Source: Clostridiales bacterium (GTDB lineage: Bacteria; Bacillota; Clostridia; Christensenellales; SZUA-584). From it: 39,733 nt of DNA. Made by a program: the position numbers and the translations under genes. Under the pieces are notes generated by a model. It was not told the origin of the DNA. It was given only the letters and a program-made list of their open reading frames with translations, and ran no database searches. Position 1 is the stretch's first letter, and each line of letters starts with the position of its first letter. Location: assembly GCA_029265435.1 (NCBI GenBank), contig JAJUJH010000006.1:1-39733 (forward strand), given 5' to 3'. Shown here piece by piece: positions 19,444 through 39,733 of this stretch.

Positions 19444-19655
19444 AGCCTCCCGTACTGCCGGCGGAAGGCTTGGACTGTCAATAAAGCCAATAATATTATA
19501 AATCGCGGGCAAGACGGGCTTGGCCCGCGCAGCCCGCACCTTGCGGTTTTGCGCCGTTTCGAGCTTGCGAGGAACAAGCAAAGCCGGAAAACTGTCGGAA
19601 AACCGAAGGTTTTTCGACAAGCTGAGCCTCCCGTACTGCCGGCGGAAGGCTTGGA
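19444..19655 (+). repeat. Terminator-nested dispersed element, copy 2
   Basis: The element is 19475-19624 (150 bp). It is flanked by a 31-bp sequence repeated without any mismatch (19444-19474 and 19625-19655), itself an imperfect stem-loop (GCCTCCCG..CGGCGGAAGGC). On the minus strand the left hairpin is followed by TTTTT (complement of 19440-19444), so the host site is the terminator of the vanW-like gene ending at 19679. Stem 1 is CGCGGGC/GCCCGCG (19504-19510/19523-19529). The perfect flanks make this the youngest-looking copy. Confidence 0.92.
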
Positions 19656-31659: not shown

Positions 31660-31845
31660 AGCCTCGAAGCATCTGCTTCAAGGCCCAGACTTTTAATAAA
31701 GCTGGAAATACCATTTGCGGGCAAGGCGGGCTTTGCCCGCGCAGCCACACCTTGCGGTTTTGCGCCGTTTCAAGCATGCGAGAAACTGTCGGAAAACCGC
31801 AAGGTTTTTTCGACAAGCTAGCCTCGGAGCGTCTGCTTCGGGACC
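31660..31845 (+). repeat. Terminator-nested dispersed element, copy 3 (internally deleted)
   Basis: The element is 31687-31819 (133 bp); the 3' arm of stem 2 is missing, roughly an 18-bp deletion relative to copies 1 and 2. It is flanked by related hairpins at 31660-31686 and 31820-31845 (AGCCTCGAAGCATCTGCTTCAAGG versus AGCCTCGGAGCGTCTGCTTCGGG), now diverged but each still foldable. On the minus strand the distal hairpin is followed by GGGGTTTTAT. The proximal hairpin touches the stop codon of the endolysin gene, whose terminator is the host site. Confidence 0.85.
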
Positions 31846-32769
31846 TTATTCCGGCTGTCCGATCAGCGCCGCCCATGTTTTCGGCCCCACAACACCGTCC
31901 GTTTCAAGCCCCGCCGCCTTCTGAAACAGCTTCACGGCTTGCTCCGTCTTGGGGCCGTATATGCCGTCCGCACCGCCCGCATCGTAGCCCTTGTTTTCCA
32001 GCGCCTGCTGAACGCGGCGCACGTCGTCGCCCCTCATATACGGCTTCCCTCCGTTTTTCAGCAGCCGCGTATAACCGGCGGCGTTGAAGGCGCCGCGCCA
32101 GCATTTGAGGCGTCCGAAACGGTTCCACCCCGCCACGTCAGCGGATTCGCGCACCACGCCGTCATCCCGCCCCTTTGCGTGTACGACGCTTCCGTCTCCC
32201 ATATACACGCCCACGTGATACATCTGATTTTTGAGCGCATATTTTTTGAACATGAGATCGCCCGCCTGAAGCTCACTTCTTTCGATCGCGCCGCACTCGT
32301 CGAAGAATAGCCCGTTCGCCGTCTTATCTTTTACGATCAGCTTGTTGTCAAGCAGAAATTTGACGATCAATCCGGAGCAGTCATAGCAGACAAGCGACGC
32401 GCCGGCGGCCGCATGTGCGTTGTACGACGCCATCGCGCGCCGGTAATTGCCGTCGTCCTTTTCGAGACTGCGGATAAGGGCAGGCGTTGCCGTCTGTCCC
32501 TGCCCGCCCGACACATACAGCGCCCCGACCTGAGCCGCGATATACGCAACAAAGGTCTGCCTCATGTCCGCCGCGCCGCGCCATTCTTCGGCGCTCACCA
32601 ATGCCGCCGCGTCCCCCGCTTTCACGAATCCCGGTATGTACGCAATCAGCGTTCCGGCCGCGTTTTCCTCCATCACAAAAACGGCGTCGCCGCAGTTGAG
32701 CGACCCGATCACCCATTCTCCCGTGCTGTTATACACGTCCACGCTCTTTTCTGCCACCTTCATATTCAT
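31846..32769 (-). CDS. Phage endolysin: NlpC/P60 peptidase with peptidoglycan-binding domain
   Basis: 307 residues. Residues 1-60 look like an SH3-type wall-binding fold. The NlpC/P60 Cys-His domain spans about 70-230, with catalytic Cys131 (YDCSGLIVKFL) and His185 (YHVGVYMGDGSVVHAKGR). Residues 235-305 form a PG_binding_1 domain (RGDDVRRVQQALENKGYDAGG, GPKTEQAVKLFQKAAGLETDGVVG). It should cleave the stem peptide of peptidoglycan, for phage release. ATG 32769 has GAGG upstream and lies four bases after the preceding tail gene. It has no signal peptide, as expected for a holin-dependent lysin. Confidence 0.92.
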   Translation of the reverse strand: MNMKVAEKSVDVYNSTGEWVIGSLNCGDAVFVMEENAAGTLIAYIPGFVKAGDAAALVSAEEWRGAADMRQTFVAYIAAQVGALYVSGGQGQTATPALIRSLEKDDGNYRRAMASYNAHAAAGASLVCYDCSGLIVKFLLDNKLIVKDKTANGLFFDECGAIERSELQAGDLMFKKYALKNQMYHVGVYMGDGSVVHAKGRDDGVVRESADVAGWNRFGRLKCWRGAFNAAGYTRLLKNGGKPYMRGDDVRRVQQALENKGYDAGGADGIYGPKTEQAVKLFQKAAGLETDGVVGPKTWAALIGQPE

Positions 32770-32773
32770 TTCC

Positions 32774-33466
32774 TTACCTCACGAACAGATATGCACGTTT
32801 GAGATTCGTCACGCCGCCCGTGCTTTCGGCGCGCGACATGCCGTATGCCATCATTGTGCCGGATACCATCGTAAACACGCGGTAGTCCATGTTCCCGGTG
32901 TTTGGATCGCAGCCGATCACGCGCGCGGCGGGCGGCATCATCATACCGTCGTTTCCCAGCGGCAGTACGGCAAAGCCTGTCACCGCCGACGCGCTCTCGT
33001 CCCGAAGCTGTATCATGATCTCGGCGCTGCCCGTCAGCGGCGTTATCGCAAACCCGCCGCTGACCCCCAGCGCGCCCTCGTATACGAGCGTCCAGCAAAG
33101 CGCGTTTTGATGCAGCTTGCCTTTTGTCACCGCGCCGTCCGCCAGCTTGTTGGCCGTTATTGTTCCGTCCGGCAGCGTTCCCGCGGATACGTCGTCAATC
33201 TGCCTTTTGATGTCCGCGATTTGAGCGCGCACCGTGTCGCCCGCCACATACGCGATCGCCGCGCTGCCTATCCTGTCCGCGCCGCTTTGGCCGGCTTCCG
33301 CGGATTCCAGTTCGGCAATCAGCGTACCGTTCAAATACGCCTTGAGCTGATCCGAAACGCTCTGCACCTGCGCGCGGGCCTCTTCCTCGCTGTCGGGCGT
33401 TGTGGGATAAGCCTCCTTGTTGTTCAGTCCGTCCTCGGGGCTGAACGCCATTCTCGTAAAAGCCAT
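32774..33466 (-). CDS. Phage tail/fibre-like protein
   Basis: 230 residues from ATG 33466 (GAGGTG upstream). The N-terminal part is helical and charged (DSEEEARAQVQSVSDQLKAYLNGTLIAELESAEAG). It is followed by IADIKRQIDDVSAGTLPDGTITANKLADGAVTKGKL, a pattern common in phage tail fibres and baseplate-associated proteins, and then a beta-rich C-terminus. I cannot assign an enzymatic role. Its place between the large tail protein and the lysin suggests a host-contact or tail-tip function. Confidence 0.65.
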   Translation of the reverse strand: MAFTRMAFSPEDGLNNKEAYPTTPDSEEEARAQVQSVSDQLKAYLNGTLIAELESAEAGQSGADRIGSAAIAYVAGDTVRAQIADIKRQIDDVSAGTLPDGTITANKLADGAVTKGKLHQNALCWTLVYEGALGVSGGFAITPLTGSAEIMIQLRDESASAVTGFAVLPLGNDGMMMPPAARVIGCDPNTGNMDYRVFTMVSGTMMAYGMSRAESTGGVTNLKRAYLFVR

Positions 33467-33471
33467 TTCCG

Positions 33472-35301
33472 TCACCTCGTTTTTCTGTTGCCGCAGTATG
33501 TAAACCGCAGCCCCGCAAGCCTCAGGCCGCGGTTCTTTTCCCCTCCCGATATGCGTATCTGAATAAACGCGCCGCCGCTCATATTCAGCCGCATGGCGAA
33601 CGTATCCATAATACGGGCCGCATTGAATGAAAACGCGGCCCAGTTCAGCCATCTCCACGTGAACGATCGGATGTCGAACCGGCGGCTTTTATGTACGGCA
33701 CGCTTTTCGCCGCCCACCGTCACAACCGCGCTCACATCGCCGTTCGCCGAAAAGCTCGGATAGACGTTGAGAAACGTCTTGAGCTCGTTCGGGCTTCCCA
33801 TGTCGTATGCCTTGCTCGTAAAATATGCGTCAAACGCCTTCCCGAAGTCGCTATGCCGCTTTGTAAAACGCACGATGCCGTCCGCGCCGCCGTAATGAAG
33901 CCCGTCCGCGCCGTCAAAAAACACATTCGCGCGGATATTGTCAAAGCGGTACCATGCGAGACGGCGCTGTGCCTGTTCATAATCCGCGTAATCGTAATAC
34001 GGCGTCTGCTCATAATCCCATAAATACGCATGGCCGCCCGCGCACAGCCAATAGCATCGTCCGGAGTCCGCCGAACACGCGTCGGCAAGGCCTTCTTCTT
34101 CGAGCAGCAGCCTGCCGATGTTTGCCGAAAGCGGTTTGACCGCATTTTCCATCTCGCCGTTTGTGGATACGAGCATATGCACGCCGCTCGACGTGTTCGC
34201 AAACACAAGGCAGTTGTCGATGAGCTGCACGCTTCCCGGCATATCGCACCCGATCGCGCTGTGGCATTCCGTCACCGGATAATAGACGTCCGCGCCGTCG
34301 AACGAATATCCTACCTTGAAAATAGAGCTGCTTTTGAATATCACGAGTTCGCCGCCCATTTTGGCCGCCGCGGTGATCGGTTCGCCGTTCTGGTCGAGGT
34401 ATTCTTCCCCCGTGTCGGGGAAATAGCGCATACCGCCGCCCACGTACTGGCCAAGGTCGCTGCGCCAGTAGCTGCGCGGATACTCCGGATTGCCCATCAC
34501 AAATACGCGCGTGCCGCCAAATACGCCTGCCGCCGCGCCGCCGAAAGGCACCGCCACGCGGCAGCCCGCGATCTTTTTGCGGTTGCCCTCAATCGTTTTG
34601 CAAGCCGTGATCCACACGTTGTCCGTTCCCGCCGGCGGCGCGCCATACGGGCTGCTGCCCGCCGCGAAATTTACCGTTCCGTCCGCCCTGTTCACGGTGA
34701 AGTGGATCCCCTCAAGAAGATCCGCCGTATTCACGCTCGCTTTCACTGCCGCCGCGTCCAAGCCCTTTTGCGGCAGACGGTAAACGGCGCTCACACCGTC
34801 GCCGTTGTATTTGACGGTAAAGCCGCCGCCCAGCAGATTATAGGCGTCCCCGTCCGCGCTGTCCGACAGATCGGGCCGCGCGTTTATCATCACGCACGGC
34901 ACAAACGGGGATACGGCGGCCACGCCGTATGCGGAGGAAATCTCCCATATCTCTGTGCCGTCCAGATAATAAAGCAGGTCTCCGAATTCACAGAACACGC
35001 CCGCTTTGTCCGGCAAGCCGCTCTTAAGCTTCTTTGCCGTATCCCCGCTCCATAAATAAAGACAGCCGCCCGCGTGCACCGCGCAGCCGCCGTTGTAAGG
35101 CGGCGATATCGCATGCACCGCGCCGTCCAAGCCGCCGATGACCAGCGCCTGCCCGCCTCGCTTGGTGAGAACGCGGTCTTTAAACCACATGTTCAGCATA
35201 TCGGGGCTTTGGTTATCCGCCACGTTGTATTCCGGATCGTTTACATTGAGGCCGCCGTTCAGATCCGGCAGCTTCACTTCCTTGATCGCCGTTTTCCGCA
35301 T
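33472..35301 (-). CDS. Large phage structural protein, probably tail nozzle/stabilisation type
   Basis: 609 residues from ATG 35301, with GGGAGG upstream; the open frame continues 109 residues further but into unlikely sequence. The N-terminus (LPDLNGGLNVNDPEYNVADNQSPDMLNMWFKDRVLTKRGG) is characteristic of podovirus tail or stabilisation proteins that begin with a short glycine-rich start. The rest is beta-rich with many short GG and WY turns, consistent with a propeller-like tail hub or nozzle. I do not recognise a specific named family, so this is a context-based call: it follows the capsid and connector genes and precedes the lysin. Confidence 0.6.
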   Translation of the reverse strand: MRKTAIKEVKLPDLNGGLNVNDPEYNVADNQSPDMLNMWFKDRVLTKRGGQALVIGGLDGAVHAISPPYNGGCAVHAGGCLYLWSGDTAKKLKSGLPDKAGVFCEFGDLLYYLDGTEIWEISSAYGVAAVSPFVPCVMINARPDLSDSADGDAYNLLGGGFTVKYNGDGVSAVYRLPQKGLDAAAVKASVNTADLLEGIHFTVNRADGTVNFAAGSSPYGAPPAGTDNVWITACKTIEGNRKKIAGCRVAVPFGGAAAGVFGGTRVFVMGNPEYPRSYWRSDLGQYVGGGMRYFPDTGEEYLDQNGEPITAAAKMGGELVIFKSSSIFKVGYSFDGADVYYPVTECHSAIGCDMPGSVQLIDNCLVFANTSSGVHMLVSTNGEMENAVKPLSANIGRLLLEEEGLADACSADSGRCYWLCAGGHAYLWDYEQTPYYDYADYEQAQRRLAWYRFDNIRANVFFDGADGLHYGGADGIVRFTKRHSDFGKAFDAYFTSKAYDMGSPNELKTFLNVYPSFSANGDVSAVVTVGGEKRAVHKSRRFDIRSFTWRWLNWAAFSFNAARIMDTFAMRLNMSGGAFIQIRISGGEKNRGLRLAGLRFTYCGNRKTR

Positions 35302-35314
35302 TTCGTCCCTCCCG

Positions 35315-35923
35315 TCAAGCGATGCGCACCCATATATACACAGGCACCGACGGCTGAATGTTGTTGTGAGGCGCACCGCTGCCCGAAGACTGGTTAACCG
35401 CTGTCGATGGGCCGCTGATGTTTGCCGACGTTGTAACGCTGTGCGTATGCGTGCCGGCAGACACAACAACATCGTTTGCAACCATGGCGGCGTCGATTCC
35501 CGCAATTCTCGGTTTTCCGCTTCCGGATGCGGCGTCTCCCTTGTACCCGATGCCATGGATATGCTCCCCAGCGGAAGCGGCTGTGCCGGAAAGCGCCGGA
35601 ATCGAATGCGTATGACCGTTCTGAGCATGCGTATGAGCTCCGTTTTGCTCTCCCGTCAGCGCCACCGTTTTGGTTCCCACTTTATGCCCCGCTTTTGAAA
35701 AATCCGGATCGTCCGGATCAACGCCCACAATGCAGCAGCCTTTGGCATACCTCTCCCACTCACCGCCCAAATATCCCGACGGATTCGCCTCCGTCAGCGA
35801 AAAAAACAAAGATCCCACCGGAAACACCTTCAGCACGACCTCGCTGTTGACGGCCTGTGCAAAATCATCGAGCCGCCTTGAAAGCCGGAGGAACTGCTCC
35901 ATCGTCACCTGTGTCTGCGCCAT
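35315..35923 (-). CDS. Phage tail collar/baseplate-like protein
   Basis: 202 residues from ATG 35923 behind GGAGGCGG. The middle part (FPVGSLFFSLTEANPSGYLGGEWERYAKGCCIVGVDPDD) is the tail-collar type segment. It is followed by several HTH triads (GAHTHAQNGHTHS, GEHIHGIG, AGTHTHSV) that commonly bind metal in intertwined phage fibres. The closing APHNNIQPSVPVYIWVRIA is diagnostic of this group. It is likely the receptor-binding or fibre-tip protein. Confidence 0.85.
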   Translation of the reverse strand: MAQTQVTMEQFLRLSRRLDDFAQAVNSEVVLKVFPVGSLFFSLTEANPSGYLGGEWERYAKGCCIVGVDPDDPDFSKAGHKVGTKTVALTGEQNGAHTHAQNGHTHSIPALSGTAASAGEHIHGIGYKGDAASGSGKPRIAGIDAAMVANDVVVSAGTHTHSVTTSANISGPSTAVNQSSGSGAPHNNIQPSVPVYIWVRIA

Positions 35924-35934
35924 CTCCGCCTCCG

Positions 35935-36297
35935 TCAATTCATGCCGCTCAAAACCGCGTATTCGTCCGCCGCTTCGGTTTCGGCCGTCCGTATCGTGCG
36001 CTGAAGCGCGCGGTACATCGCGCTGTAGTCCGCGTACATATCGCTGTTCTTGTCCGCGAGCGAAAAGCTTGCGGCAAGTCCGTAAGGCAGAATCCGTTCC
36101 GCCGTGTCGTCGCTGATCTCCAGCGCATCGTCAAGGCTCTTCACAGTGCGCGTTAACGCCGTCCCCTCGCAATACGCAAGCTCTCGCTGCAGCACGTCTA
36201 TCAGCGCGGGCGCGCGTTTTCTGTAATCCGCCTCGTCGGGCGAATCCGTCTGGTCGATCAGCGCCAGCGCCAATTCATATACATCCTGCGCCGTCAT
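35935..36297 (-). CDS. Phage head-tail connector-like protein
   Basis: 120 residues from ATG 36297, behind AAAGGGGG. Almost wholly helical: VYELALALIDQTD, YRKRAPALIDVLQRELAYCEGT, DDTAERILPYGLAASFSLADKNSDMYADYSAMYRALQRTIR. Short all-helical proteins at this position, after the capsid, usually form the head-tail adaptor (gp6/gp4 type). The gene ends 11 bases before the collar-like gene. Confidence 0.65.
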   Translation of the reverse strand: MTAQDVYELALALIDQTDSPDEADYRKRAPALIDVLQRELAYCEGTALTRTVKSLDDALEISDDTAERILPYGLAASFSLADKNSDMYADYSAMYRALQRTIRTAETEAADEYAVLSGMN

Positions 36298-36388
36298 ATC
36301 AAAACCCCCTTTCACATGCTCTGCTCCTTGCAAGAAGGAATACGGCGGACGCCCGGCAAATACCGCGCGTCCGCCCCGTCTCAGGCCG

Positions 36389-36757
36389 TCACAGCTGAAC
36401 CGCCTCTATCGAAATTGCAGAGAGCTGCTCGGCCGTCAGCGCGCCGCCGTCCTGCGCCGAAAGCTCAACGGCGATCGTGCCGTCATGACGTTTAAACCGC
36501 GCGGTATCAAAAAGCGCGATATACGCCGTCTGTCCCGCCGGCACATTGACGGTCTTTTTCCCGAGAACCGCGCGCGGCCCGTCTCCCTTGCATATGCCCA
36601 CCGCAACCGCCGCCGGCGCGCCGTTGCAGACGCGAAGCGCCATGCGCGCGTCCTTGGCAGGCGTTACCGACTGCGCCGACGCGGCGGGCGTCAAAGCGCC
36701 GTTTGCCGCCATGCTCACACCGCCGCCGCTCACATCAAACACACTGACACTTTCCAT
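36389..36757 (-). CDS. Small beta-rich phage protein, possible capsid decoration
   Basis: 122 residues from ATG 36757, behind GAGGAGGG. Ala/Gly/Val-rich with a compact beta-type composition (MALRVCNGAPAAVAVGIC, TVNVPAGQTAYIALFD, GTIAVELSAQDGG). No known family is recognised. Its position directly after the major capsid gene (13 bp gap) suggests a head decoration or cement protein, but that is inference from gene order. Confidence 0.6.
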   Translation of the reverse strand: MESVSVFDVSGGGVSMAANGALTPAASAQSVTPAKDARMALRVCNGAPAAVAVGICKGDGPRAVLGKKTVNVPAGQTAYIALFDTARFKRHDGTIAVELSAQDGGALTAEQLSAISIEAVQL

Positions 36758-36770
36758 TCACACGCCCTCC

Positions 36771-37610
36771 TCAAATCGACGTTTCTTCGGCCGTCGTGAG
36801 ATCCACGCGGATCAGCTCGGCGGGGCGGATCACCGTACCGCCGTAAAGATGCAGCACCTTAAAAGCGTCCGCAAACGTCTTCTCCGGCTTGTACCGCTCG
36901 ATCATGCCTGCGGGGATTTGCTCCGCCAGCGCGATCGCCTGCCTTGTGAACGCCATGCAATGATGCACGCTCCCCGTCTTTTTGATGGAATTGCTGACGT
37001 ACACACCGAAATTCAGATAGCTGCCCTTAAACCCCTTGCCGAACACATCCGCGTTCCCCTGCTGAAACATGATCTTGCCAAGCACGAGCTTAGTATAAAT
37101 AGCGGGCGATATCACGAGAAACCGTTCCTCCTCAAAGGGCACGTCCGCCTCAAGCAGCGCCTGTTCGGCTTCGGCCAGCGTCGAGAGTATCGTCGCCGAT
37201 GTGCAGTTCGTATTTTCGATGACGCCGCCCGCCTGCTCGTGAAACCCCGCGATATATTCGTCCAGCGTCTGGGCCAGCGCCTTTTTGGCCTCTCTGACCT
37301 CCACGCCGAATACCTCGCCCTGCGCCTGCGCTTTGTCCACCCTGTCCACCTCAACGTTGACGTATTTGGCTTCGGTGATGTAAAGGTCCTGATTATAGCT
37401 CGTTTTCTGTTCGAGCGTGATATCCTCGCCGGGCGTATAATCCCTGACGGTCGGGCGGCCCACGCCCGCAATGCGCAGCACATCGCCCTTCTTCGTGATC
37501 TCGCCGAGTATGGGGCCTTTATAGGTCAGGTTCTTAAACACGCAGTCTCTGCCCCTGTCGGTCATCAGCTCTTTGGCCAGAATCTCCGGCCGGAAACTTT
37601 CGTATGCCAT
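36771..37610 (-). CDS. Phage major capsid protein (P22 coat-like)
   Basis: 279 residues. The opening (YESFRPEILAKELMTDRGRDCVFKNLTYKGPILGEITKKGDVLRI) and the run EDITLEQKTSYNQDLYITEAKYVNVEVDRVDKAQAQ are typical of podovirus coat proteins with the HK97 fold, as are FLVISPAIYTKLVLGK and the closing GGTVIRPAELIRVDL. It follows a scaffold-like gene, as in P22-type modules. ATG 37610 has AAGGA about eleven bases upstream. Confidence 0.85.
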   Translation of the reverse strand: MAYESFRPEILAKELMTDRGRDCVFKNLTYKGPILGEITKKGDVLRIAGVGRPTVRDYTPGEDITLEQKTSYNQDLYITEAKYVNVEVDRVDKAQAQGEVFGVEVREAKKALAQTLDEYIAGFHEQAGGVIENTNCTSATILSTLAEAEQALLEADVPFEEERFLVISPAIYTKLVLGKIMFQQGNADVFGKGFKGSYLNFGVYVSNSIKKTGSVHHCMAFTRQAIALAEQIPAGMIERYKPEKTFADAFKVLHLYGGTVIRPAELIRVDLTTAEETSI

Positions 37611-37627
37611 CCAGTGTCACATCCTTT

Positions 37628-38299
37628 CTATTCTTTTTGTCCCGTTAAAAACGCCCAGATCCGGCTGTGGTTGCTTTCCAGCTCCGCCGGGCTCATCATT
37701 CTGATGCTGTCTTCGGTGATCGGCTTTGGTGCGGCCGCTCCCGTCCCGATGGCGCCGCCCATGCTCGCGTAGGCGTTCTGCGCGTTGGTTTGCCGCACAG
37801 ACTCCTTTTGCCGCTGCTGTTCGTTTAAACGCGCGTACGCGTCGATCAGCGGCATGCCGTTTTTCCATGCGTCCAGCACCGACGCGGGCAGCACGCGCGG
37901 GTCGATATCCGGATGCGCCTGCATAAATGCGTCAAGCTGGGCGTTCACCGTTTCCTGTTTCTGCCGTTCCTCACCGAGCTTTCGTCCGATGTCGGCCAGC
38001 GCCTCCGTTTCGCTCACGCCGTGCCGCTTCGCGTATTCTTTGACCGCTTCTCCGGTGCTTTCGTACGCTGCAAGCAGTTCCTGCGTTTTTTCCAGTCTGC
38101 CGCTGAGCTTGTCGTAATTGAGCCCTTTCTGGGCATAAACGGCCGCCTCTTCACGGGACAGCGGCAGCTCGTCTTTGTTGTAGCGCACCGTCAGAAAAGC
38201 ATCCTCCTGCGGCGCACCTTCTCTCATGCCGCTTTCCGCGGCAGCTTCTTCCGGCTGGTTTGCCGTATATACAGCCTGTGGCTGGGCCATATCCGCCAT
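37628..38299 (-). CDS. Phage scaffolding protein
   Basis: 223 residues from ATG 38299 (GGGAGAG upstream); the open frame beyond is the repeat element. It is helical, charged and Gln/Glu-rich: LPLSREEAAVYAQKGLNYDKLSGRLEKTQELLAAYE, then KRHGVSETEALADIGRKLGEERQKQETVNAQLDAFMQAHPDIDP. This is the usual look of podovirus scaffolds that are encoded just before the coat protein. It is separated from the upstream genes by a terminator holding repeat copy 4, so it probably needs a promoter of its own or read-through. Confidence 0.8.
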   Translation of the reverse strand: MADMAQPQAVYTANQPEEAAAESGMREGAPQEDAFLTVRYNKDELPLSREEAAVYAQKGLNYDKLSGRLEKTQELLAAYESTGEAVKEYAKRHGVSETEALADIGRKLGEERQKQETVNAQLDAFMQAHPDIDPRVLPASVLDAWKNGMPLIDAYARLNEQQRQKESVRQTNAQNAYASMGGAIGTGAAAPKPITEDSIRMMSPAELESNHSRIWAFLTGQKE

Positions 38300-38336
38300 T
38301 GTTGTTCTCTCCCTTCGTTTTTTTGTATATAAAAAA

Positions 38337-38537
38337 CGGATCGCCGTTCGGCTGATCCGCCAGCTTGTCGAAAAACCTTCGGTTTTCCGACAGTTTTCCG
38401 GTTTTGCTTGTTCCTCGCAAGCTCGAAACGGCGCAAAACCGCAAGGTGTGGGCTGCACGGGCAAAGCCCGTCTTGCCCGTGAATGATATTTTTAGCTTTA
38501 TTGACAGCCTGACGGATCGCTGTTCGGCTGATCCGCC
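38337..38537 (-). repeat. Terminator-nested dispersed element, copy 4 (inverted)
   Basis: The element, 38362-38512 (151 bp), runs in the opposite orientation to copies 1-3. It is flanked by a 25-bp hairpin sequence at 38337-38361 and 38513-38537 with a single mismatch (CGGATCGCCG.. versus CGGATCGCTG..). On the minus strand the distal hairpin is followed by TTTTTT (complement of 38331-38336). The host site is a terminator inside the prophage structural operon. Stem 1 here is CACGGGCAA/TTGCCCGTG (38456-38464/38473-38481), with an A-T pair where copies 2 and 3 have G-C. Confidence 0.9.
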
Positions 38538-38589
38538 TTTTCAAAATCCATAACATCCCCAGAGGGAATCATACTTCACGCGTTCTGCG

Positions 38590-38618
38590 CAGAAGGGGCC
38601 GCAATGCAGCCCCTTCTG
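38590..38618. other. Strong stem-loop after the coiled-coil membrane gene
   Basis: CAGAAGGGGC (38590-38599) pairs perfectly with GCCCCTTCTG (38609-38618). It is nine bases from the stop codon of the minus-strand gene but has no T-tract on either side, so it may be an RNA-stability or processing hairpin rather than a terminator. Confidence 0.6.
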
Positions 38619-38627
38619 CCGGACGGA

Positions 38628-39044
38628 TTATCGTCCCGTCATCTCTATGATTCGCAGAATAACGGATATCACACCCGGCAGCGCGGCGAAAAGCGCAATA
38701 TACCATGCCCGCTTTTTTGACTGCTCCTTCGACGTGTTTCGTTCGATTCTTTCAACCTTGTCTCCAAGCCTGCTGAGCATTTCCACAAAAAGCTTCGCGT
38801 TGCCTTCCATACCCGTTTTGATCGTTTCGATACGGCCTTCCGCCTCGGCCAATTCCACGCGCGTCTGATTGATCTGCTCTTCCAGCTTGCAGATGCGCTT
38901 GCCGTGCTGTTCCTCCAGCCTTCGCGTTTCGCTTCTGATGGCGCGGCCGATTGCGGCACAGCCCTCTCCGTCATTCTCCAGCCCCAGCTTTTCAAACATT
39001 TCGGACAGCCGGGTAACCAGCGCGTCATTTTCCGTGACCACCAC
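38628..39044 (-). CDS. Coiled-coil protein with C-terminal membrane anchor (holin-like)
   Basis: 138 residues as read from GTG 39044, with an in-frame TAA two codons upstream; the GGGAGG nearby overlaps the start, so the exact start is unclear. Residues 30-105 are a long coiled coil (RRLEEQHGKRICKLEEQINQTRVELAEAEGRIETIKTG and LGDKVERIERNTSKEQ). One C-terminal membrane helix follows (WYIALFAALPGVISVILRII). This resembles XhlA-type haemolysin or holin-associated proteins. Its position between portal and scaffold is unusual for a lysis gene, so a structural or membrane role is also possible. Confidence 0.65.
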   Translation of the reverse strand: MVVTENDALVTRLSEMFEKLGLENDGEGCAAIGRAIRSETRRLEEQHGKRICKLEEQINQTRVELAEAEGRIETIKTGMEGNAKLFVEMLSRLGDKVERIERNTSKEQSKKRAWYIALFAALPGVISVILRIIEMTGR

Positions 39045-39087
39045 CTCCCTTTACTCATGTAGGTAACAAAGGCAACAGCCACTCACT

Positions 39088-39733
39088 TCATTTTATGCGT
39101 CCGTTTGCCCCGCGTTTGTTTTCTTTTGCGCGTTTTTCCGCGGCGTCCGCCGCCTTGCCGGCAATGTCCGGCAAGCTTTCGCGGCGCGGCTGCACCGCCT
39201 GCGTCTCCAGCCGCTTCACTTCGTCCAGCAGCTCCTCCCGCATCGGAATATACCCGTCGGGTATGCGCTCAAGATACTGACGAAAAGAAATCTGAGACCC
39301 CTTCAGAAGATTATCAAGCGTCTGCACCGTCTGCACCTCGCTCCACATCGTCGAAGGCCCCACATCCACCTTGAGGCGCATCGCATAGGCGTCGAGCACA
39401 TTCTCGGGCAGCGGCACAAACACGCGCCGCCCCTCAATGTCAATCGGTATCATGCGTCCCGCACGGTAATACTGACGTATAAAATCCAGCCAGATCAGCC
39501 CGACATCCTCCACGAACGCATAAAACCGTTCCTGCTGCGATTGCAGCGGCACCAGCGCCGCGTCCCTCGTCGCGATGAACGCGGACGTGTTGTCGGGGTT
39601 TTTGACATTGCCGAGAGTCACGTCGTTCGCGCCCATCATGCGCATCGTCGTATCCAGCGTCGCATGGAGCCCCTGCCACGCATCATAAGACACGCCCGGC
39701 GGCATCAGATACTGCGCCGCTCCCGCAATGTCG
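39088..39733 (-). CDS. Phage portal protein, C-terminal part (runs off the window)
   Basis: The frame is open to the right edge, so only the last 215 or so residues are seen. The sequence DVTLGNVKNPDNTSAFIATRDAALVPLQSQQERFYAFVEDVGLIWLDFIRQYY is typical of portal (upper collar) proteins from podovirus-like prophages of Firmicutes. It is followed by VFVPLPENVLDAYAMRLKVDVGPSTMWSEVQTVQTLDNLLKGSQISFRQYLERI and a basic, disordered end (AEKRAKENKRGANGRIK). Portal proteins form the DNA entry ring of the capsid. The terminase should lie to the right, beyond the window. Confidence 0.8.
   Translation of the reverse strand, partial: DIAGAAQYLMPPGVSYDAWQGLHATLDTTMRMMGANDVTLGNVKNPDNTSAFIATRDAALVPLQSQQERFYAFVEDVGLIWLDFIRQYYRAGRMIPIDIEGRRVFVPLPENVLDAYAMRLKVDVGPSTMWSEVQTVQTLDNLLKGSQISFRQYLERIPDGYIPMREELLDEVKRLETQAVQPRRESLPDIAGKAADAAEKRAKENKRGANGRIK

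Follow-up and report, generated by a model that had tools for sequence, protein, structure and literature searches.

Our analysis of a 39,733-nucleotide window, meaning the whole stretch of DNA under study, indicates with a probability of about 90% that the element designated copy 4 (38361-38511, minus strand) is a high-copy, non-autonomous MITE of IS1182 type whose stem-loop target was duplicated whole by an IS1182-type transposase. Copy 4 is 151 bp long, carries no gene and is 96.7% identical to its family consensus. It lies between two hairpins on the minus strand, one on the scaffold side (38336-38360, the right side in the element's orientation) and one on the far side (38512-38536); the two share 24 of 25 bases and form a target-site duplication. 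The scaffold-side hairpin is followed on the minus strand by a T-tract (38331-38336) and overlaps a terminator-like match at 38349-38334; the far hairpin has no T-tract toward the element.

The first-pass annotation had reported an inverted element copy at 38337-38537. This copy is real, in that the interval is almost exactly hairpin plus element plus hairpin, about 95 copies of the family are present in the genome, and the inversion is evident. In particular, the complementarity of copy 4 is 93-96% with copies 1 and 2 elsewhere in the window and, across two shorter stretches, 84-93% with the degraded copy 3. What the annotation missed is the doubling of the hairpin. In its own orientation, copy 4 has a strong T-tract on the right (GATCCGTTTTTTATA) and a short A-run on the left (GAAAAGG), unlike copies 1 and 2, which have an A-tract on the left.

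Copy 4 sits between two minus-strand genes, upstream of the major capsid gene (36771-37610, minus strand; PF25209, phrog_267) of a resident phage-derived cluster. Upstream of the copy 4 terminator is a gene for a 138-residue protein (38628-39044), previously labelled a coiled-coil membrane gene and without a solid family assignment. Downstream is a scaffold-like gene (37628-38302), which matches phrog_14606, a family of unknown function, and is assigned its putative scaffold role from its position.

The copy 4 site is empty in three relatives

We compared the site with three genomes, namely G001, which belongs to the same genus as the source genome, and G002 and G003, of two genera of the family. 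In all three, a single hairpin with a T-tract stands just before the scaffold gene and the element is absent, as a check proposed in the first-pass annotation had anticipated. The relatives therefore retain the ancestral terminator, and the insertion of copy 4 is derived.

All four genomes have a terminator-like hairpin only about 40 bases upstream of the start codon of the scaffold gene (window 38303-38360; L236:9570-9700), which may have a regulatory role for this gene and the capsid gene. The earlier suggestion that an internal terminator splits the structural operon is plausible, but the terminator predates the element. The first-pass annotation proposed a test for a promoter at 38300-38360; no match to the sigma-70 consensus was found in 38200-38700. 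In G001, a promoter-like match overlaps the pre-scaffold hairpin.

A high-copy element family in the host genome

The roughly 95 family copies in the 2.59-Mb draft genome correspond to about one per 27 kb. A 21-base core pattern gives 100 genomic matches (95 with up to two mismatches), compared to 0-1 for the reversed control, so the copy number is not due to chance, and patterns for the left and right ends give similar counts. The assembly is fragmented into 224 contigs, many of which end inside element copies. At least 22 core matches are present in G001 and a few in G002, whereas other families of the order gave none except one 23-base match.

The 151-bp consensus has imperfect terminal inverted repeats (CAGACTGTCAATAAAG... 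and CAGCTTGTCGAAAAAC...), and its ends are CAGACTGTCAATAAAGC and CAGCTTGTCGAAAAACC, where the second sequence is given from the right edge inward. Several properties are those of a MITE: the length is under about 500 bp and too short for a transposase, the copy number is high, the imperfect terminal repeat is accompanied by a target duplication of 18-35 bp in 44 of 57 copies, and relatives have an empty site, the last for the copy 4 locus alone.

The other three copies in the window lie on the plus strand and are likewise flanked by hairpin repeats. Copy 1 (119-269; 98% identical to the consensus) has 27-bp repeats at 92-118 and 270-296 that agree at 25 of 27 bases, and copy 2 (19471-19624; 91%) has 27-bp repeats at 19444-19470 and 19625-19651 that agree at all 27. 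Copy 3 (31686-31820; 135 bp, 79%) is degraded, and its repeats at 31661-31685 and 31821-31845 have diverged to 20 of 25. Elsewhere, one-ended truncated relics adjoin hairpins (L053, L052, L045, L119, L120), indicating that the family is old and decaying.

The target hairpin is duplicated from foot to foot

To define the target signature, we paired the flanks of the 57 element copies for which both are available. In 44 of them both ends adjoin an exact or near-exact direct repeat, 18-35 bp long with a median of 24, whereas none of 3000 mismatched flank pairs has one. In exact mirror register, Watson-Crick pairing of the six outermost bases of the repeat has a frequency of 0.74, which drops to 0.36-0.41 one base out of register and to 0.24-0.32 further off, and the repeats fold with a mean energy of -12.5 kcal/mol versus -4.0 kcal/mol for shuffles. 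The pairing peak at the exact mirror register, together with the folding energy, shows that the duplication spans the stem from foot to foot. This lends support to the earlier proposal of a mobile element at a symmetric terminator hairpin. A first hairpin score, based on a free search of stem lengths, did not separate the flanks from shuffles, and the register test was used instead.

Within a locus the paired hairpins share one sequence, whereas among loci the sequences differ. An A-tract often precedes the left hairpin and a T-tract often follows the right one, as expected if insertion split a single terminator. The divergence of the element also correlates with that of its hairpin pair (rho 0.45, p 0.002, n 44), as expected for two clocks that both started at insertion.

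Some loci depart from this pattern. In 13 of the 57 MITE loci, and in 15 of 54 loci of autonomous IS1182 elements described below, the repeat is absent or could not be scored without gaps. Some of the unscored loci have hairpins that diverged by small insertions (L005, L020, L064), and a few have no hairpin at all (the second copy at L066, L091, L158) and may be exceptions. At least 11 IS loci (L150, L155, L159, L160, L165, L169, L184, L191, L203, L215, L216) are flanked by two good but different hairpins, a state seen in roughly a fifth of the IS1182 copies and in at least one MITE copy (L028). The simplest reading is that flanks were exchanged by recombination between copies; under our main model, these loci need either such recombination or another step.

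Orientation of the copies and gene 3' ends

The MITE copies are located at gene 3' ends. Calls of gene direction from open frames alone were too ambiguous (49 of 57 unclear), and a hexamer model of coding potential, which was correct for 21 of 24 held-out chunks, was used instead. Flanking gene pairs are convergent in 16 cases and divergent in none. Where a single gene has its 3' end toward the element, that gene is on the right in 24 cases and on the left in 8 (p 0.007, hexamer model), so that the facing gene is antiparallel to the element in 24 cases and parallel in 8; for tandem gene pairs, the corresponding counts are 17 and 3. The tracts are also unevenly distributed, with only an A-tract on the left in 22 copies and only a T-tract on the right in 5 (p 0.0015; range 0.0005-0.011 across nine threshold choices). 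Copy 4 belongs to the minority orientation class. The first-pass annotation had described insertion as orientation-independent, and both orientations do occur, but not equally.

This orientation bias is not accounted for by the main model. The set of autonomous IS1182 elements has no tract bias (6 against 10), and the bias of the MITE is therefore perhaps a product of selection in the lineage and not of the reaction.

An alternative hypothesis is that the copies are selected, functional 3'-end modules, either an RNA element or an extra terminator, and that their mobility is incidental. Consistent with this, divergent pairs are missing and the gene orientation is skewed 24:8 at the 3' ends where the copies lie, the consensus is predicted to fold strongly (-59.4 kcal/mol on one strand, -55.4 kcal/mol on the other), and copy 4 has an internal terminator-like stem at 38456-38481. 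However, a location at gene 3' ends already follows from terminator targeting, and the copies decay, as seen in the 79% identity of copy 3 and in the truncated relics. Furthermore, no Rfam family was matched in the window, group II introns included, and the autonomous elements do not share the tract bias. We consider it improbable that selected function, and not transposition into terminators, explains the copies.

Relationship to IS1182 elements

Transposases were collected by a PF13751 search of the order and identified with NF033551 (455 bits, cut-off 270). Two of the IS1182-family elements obtained, with ends CAGACTGTCTACAAAG and CAGACTGTAGACAAAC, adjoin hairpins. When 84,980 species genomes were scanned with an alignment of the two, 80 relatives were recovered, mostly from Lachnospiraceae, and 54 elements with both flanks made up the IS1182 signature set. 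In 39 of these 54 loci there is a direct repeat of 20-40 bp (median 26), and pairing of the outer bases of the repeats has a frequency of 0.95 in mirror register, against about 0.3 when the register is shifted.

The ends agree as well. Of 16 bases at the MITE end, 14 are shared with the IS1182 end CAGACTGTCTACAAAG and 13 with CAGACTGTAGACAAAG; by side, the match is 13-14 of 16 on the left, which 0 of 20,000 shuffled 16-mers reached, and 11-12 of 16 on the right. In particular, Clostridial IS1182 elements (Lachnospiraceae and others, ends CAGACTGTAGACAAAG, loci L142-L221) have terminal bases nearly equal to those of the MITE and also duplicate whole hairpins (20-40 bp) where they enter terminator-like inverted repeats. 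Unlike the MITE, these elements are autonomous and about 1.6-1.7 kb long, with a transposase gene, and the MITE shares with the IS1182 elements examined its ends alone and not its interior. Because the ends match and autonomous IS1182 elements have the same hairpin-duplication signature, we conclude that the MITE is, as judged from its sequence, of IS1182 type.

Neither the draft assembly nor its genus yielded an intact IS1182 transposase with MITE-like ends. The host family has only transposase fragments or other subgroups, none over the cut-off, an absence that carries little weight in a draft with many contig ends in repeats. Three candidate partners were rejected: the degraded DDE transposase C163 of the same genome and the IS1182-like element of G003 have flanks without MITE ends, and the 337-residue transposase of G001 has no such ends nearby and only a partial IS1182 score, below the cut-off. 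We infer mobilization in trans by an IS1182 transposase from the elements of other families.

Hairpins also serve as targets or ends for IIC group II introns, REP/RAYT and IS200/IS605 elements, so another DDE or structure-targeting system could have placed the copies. To our knowledge, none of these three makes a long target duplication around inverted terminal repeats. With no group II intron or other Rfam match in the window, and with element ends that match those of IS1182 elements, such an origin is very improbable.

A model for insertion into terminators

IS1272 and TnSha1, IS1182-family elements of Staphylococcus, delete or replace the target hairpin (PMC4923244, PMC5678879). A hypothetical alternative has been drawn (PMC5678879, Fig. 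13, pathway b), in which the 3' ends are joined to both 5' stem feet and the stem-loop is duplicated. Our data for the MITE and for autonomous IS1182 elements fit this alternative pathway. Replacement of the IS1272 kind, with the second hairpin a remnant or a part of the element, would have precedent in these members of the same transposase family, but it is hardly credible here, given that hairpins stand on both sides of the element, that they are the same per locus and differ among loci (44 of 57 MITE and 39 of 54 IS1182 loci), and that three relatives have one hairpin at the copy 4 site.

In the whole-hairpin duplication model, an IS1182-family DDE transposase given in trans would recognize the CAG..TGTCRA ends and would take an extruded cruciform as its target. 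The 3' ends of the element would be joined to the 5' feet of both stems, the predicted sites of cleavage, and gap repair would then duplicate the entire hairpin. The predicted outcome is an A-tract plus one hairpin on one side and a hairpin plus a T-tract on the other. This arrangement should keep the host terminator working in either direction, so that insertion would cost little, and the gene's stop signal is probably left working.

IS1272 and TnSha1 resemble the present system in their IS1182-family transposase, in an inverted-repeat target that has no sequence consensus and is often a terminator, in the occurrence of both orientations and in one reported insertion on a prophage (PMC5678879, PMC4923244). 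The difference is that IS1272 insertion loses the target hairpin without duplication, whereas here the whole hairpin is doubled around a 151-bp non-autonomous element. A review of bacterial MITEs (PMC10969869; Correia, BOX/RUP/SPRITE, QMITE, Chunjie and others) covers elements that are likewise short, gene-less, intergenic and high-copy, with terminal inverted repeats; it makes no mention of IS1182, and the passages considered here describe no hairpin duplication. The pneumococcal SPRITE is itself terminator-like but, unlike the present MITE, does not target terminators (PMC10969869).

In the open-licence literature we found neither an IS1182-type MITE nor whole-hairpin duplication by an IS, although an earlier description, for example in ISfinder notes, may exist. 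Hairpin targeting by the IS1182 family is detailed in the literature we found only for IS1272, which destroys its target, and the 57 MITE copies and 54 autonomous elements document the other outcome, in which the hairpin is copied whole and the duplication ends at the stem feet. Duplication from foot to foot supports recognition of DNA structure over sequence and makes the cruciform mechanism directly testable. A density of one copy per 27 kb would be tolerable with little damage because insertion restores the type of site that it enters. A broader generalization is that a subgroup of IS1182 elements and their MITEs cut stem-loops at the 5' feet, duplicate them entire and rebuild a working terminator on both sides, and that the copies described here also act as oriented 3'-end elements that affect RNA; taken as a whole, this is rather unlikely.

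The phage-derived cluster around copy 4

The cluster of portal, scaffold, capsid and endolysin genes is common to four of the five genomes of the family. In the window it includes the 3' part of a P22-like portal gene (39088-39705, minus strand), which is truncated where the contig stops. Collinearity of the cluster with G001 spans 31867-39732, and parts are collinear with G002 and G003, with matching gene order. Capsid protein identity is 96% to G001, 84% to G002 and 86% to G003. Against G001, the capsid gene has a dN/dS of about 0.025 at a dS of 1.24, and capsid dS is about 1 or more overall. The neighbors of the G001 cluster are MutS-like, ketopantoate reductase, AIM24 and DeoR genes, and no integrase or terminase was found among the flanking ORFs scanned. 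Thus, neither the sporadic presence nor the integrase and terminase of a recently acquired prophage were observed. No relative of the capsid gene was found in IMG/VR, and its matches to named phages are all under 60% identity, the best at about 33%.

This evidence does not point to recent acquisition, which had been assumed when the element was said to have invaded newly arrived DNA. Either the cluster has long been resident and kept by purifying selection, or a single phage lineage has infected members of the family repeatedly. The genes seem to be long established, yet copy 4 is not fixed among the relatives, so that the refuting condition posed in the first-pass annotation is only half borne out. 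The idea that phages could carry the element between hosts found no backing: neither IMG/VR, searched with an exact 21-mer, nor a set of 50,697 phage genomes gave a match.

The structural cluster is compact (31846-39705, minus strand; L236:7427-16280), with portal, scaffold-like, capsid, tail-like and endolysin genes. Because it is present in four of five genomes, has no terminase or integrase among the neighboring ORFs scanned in G001 and has a low capsid dN/dS, it is a candidate for a domesticated phage particle or a gene-transfer-agent-like system. Both its mid-cluster terminator (copy 4) and its end terminator (copy 3) carry an element, and copy 3 with its hairpins (31661-31845) lies directly behind the endolysin stop codon.
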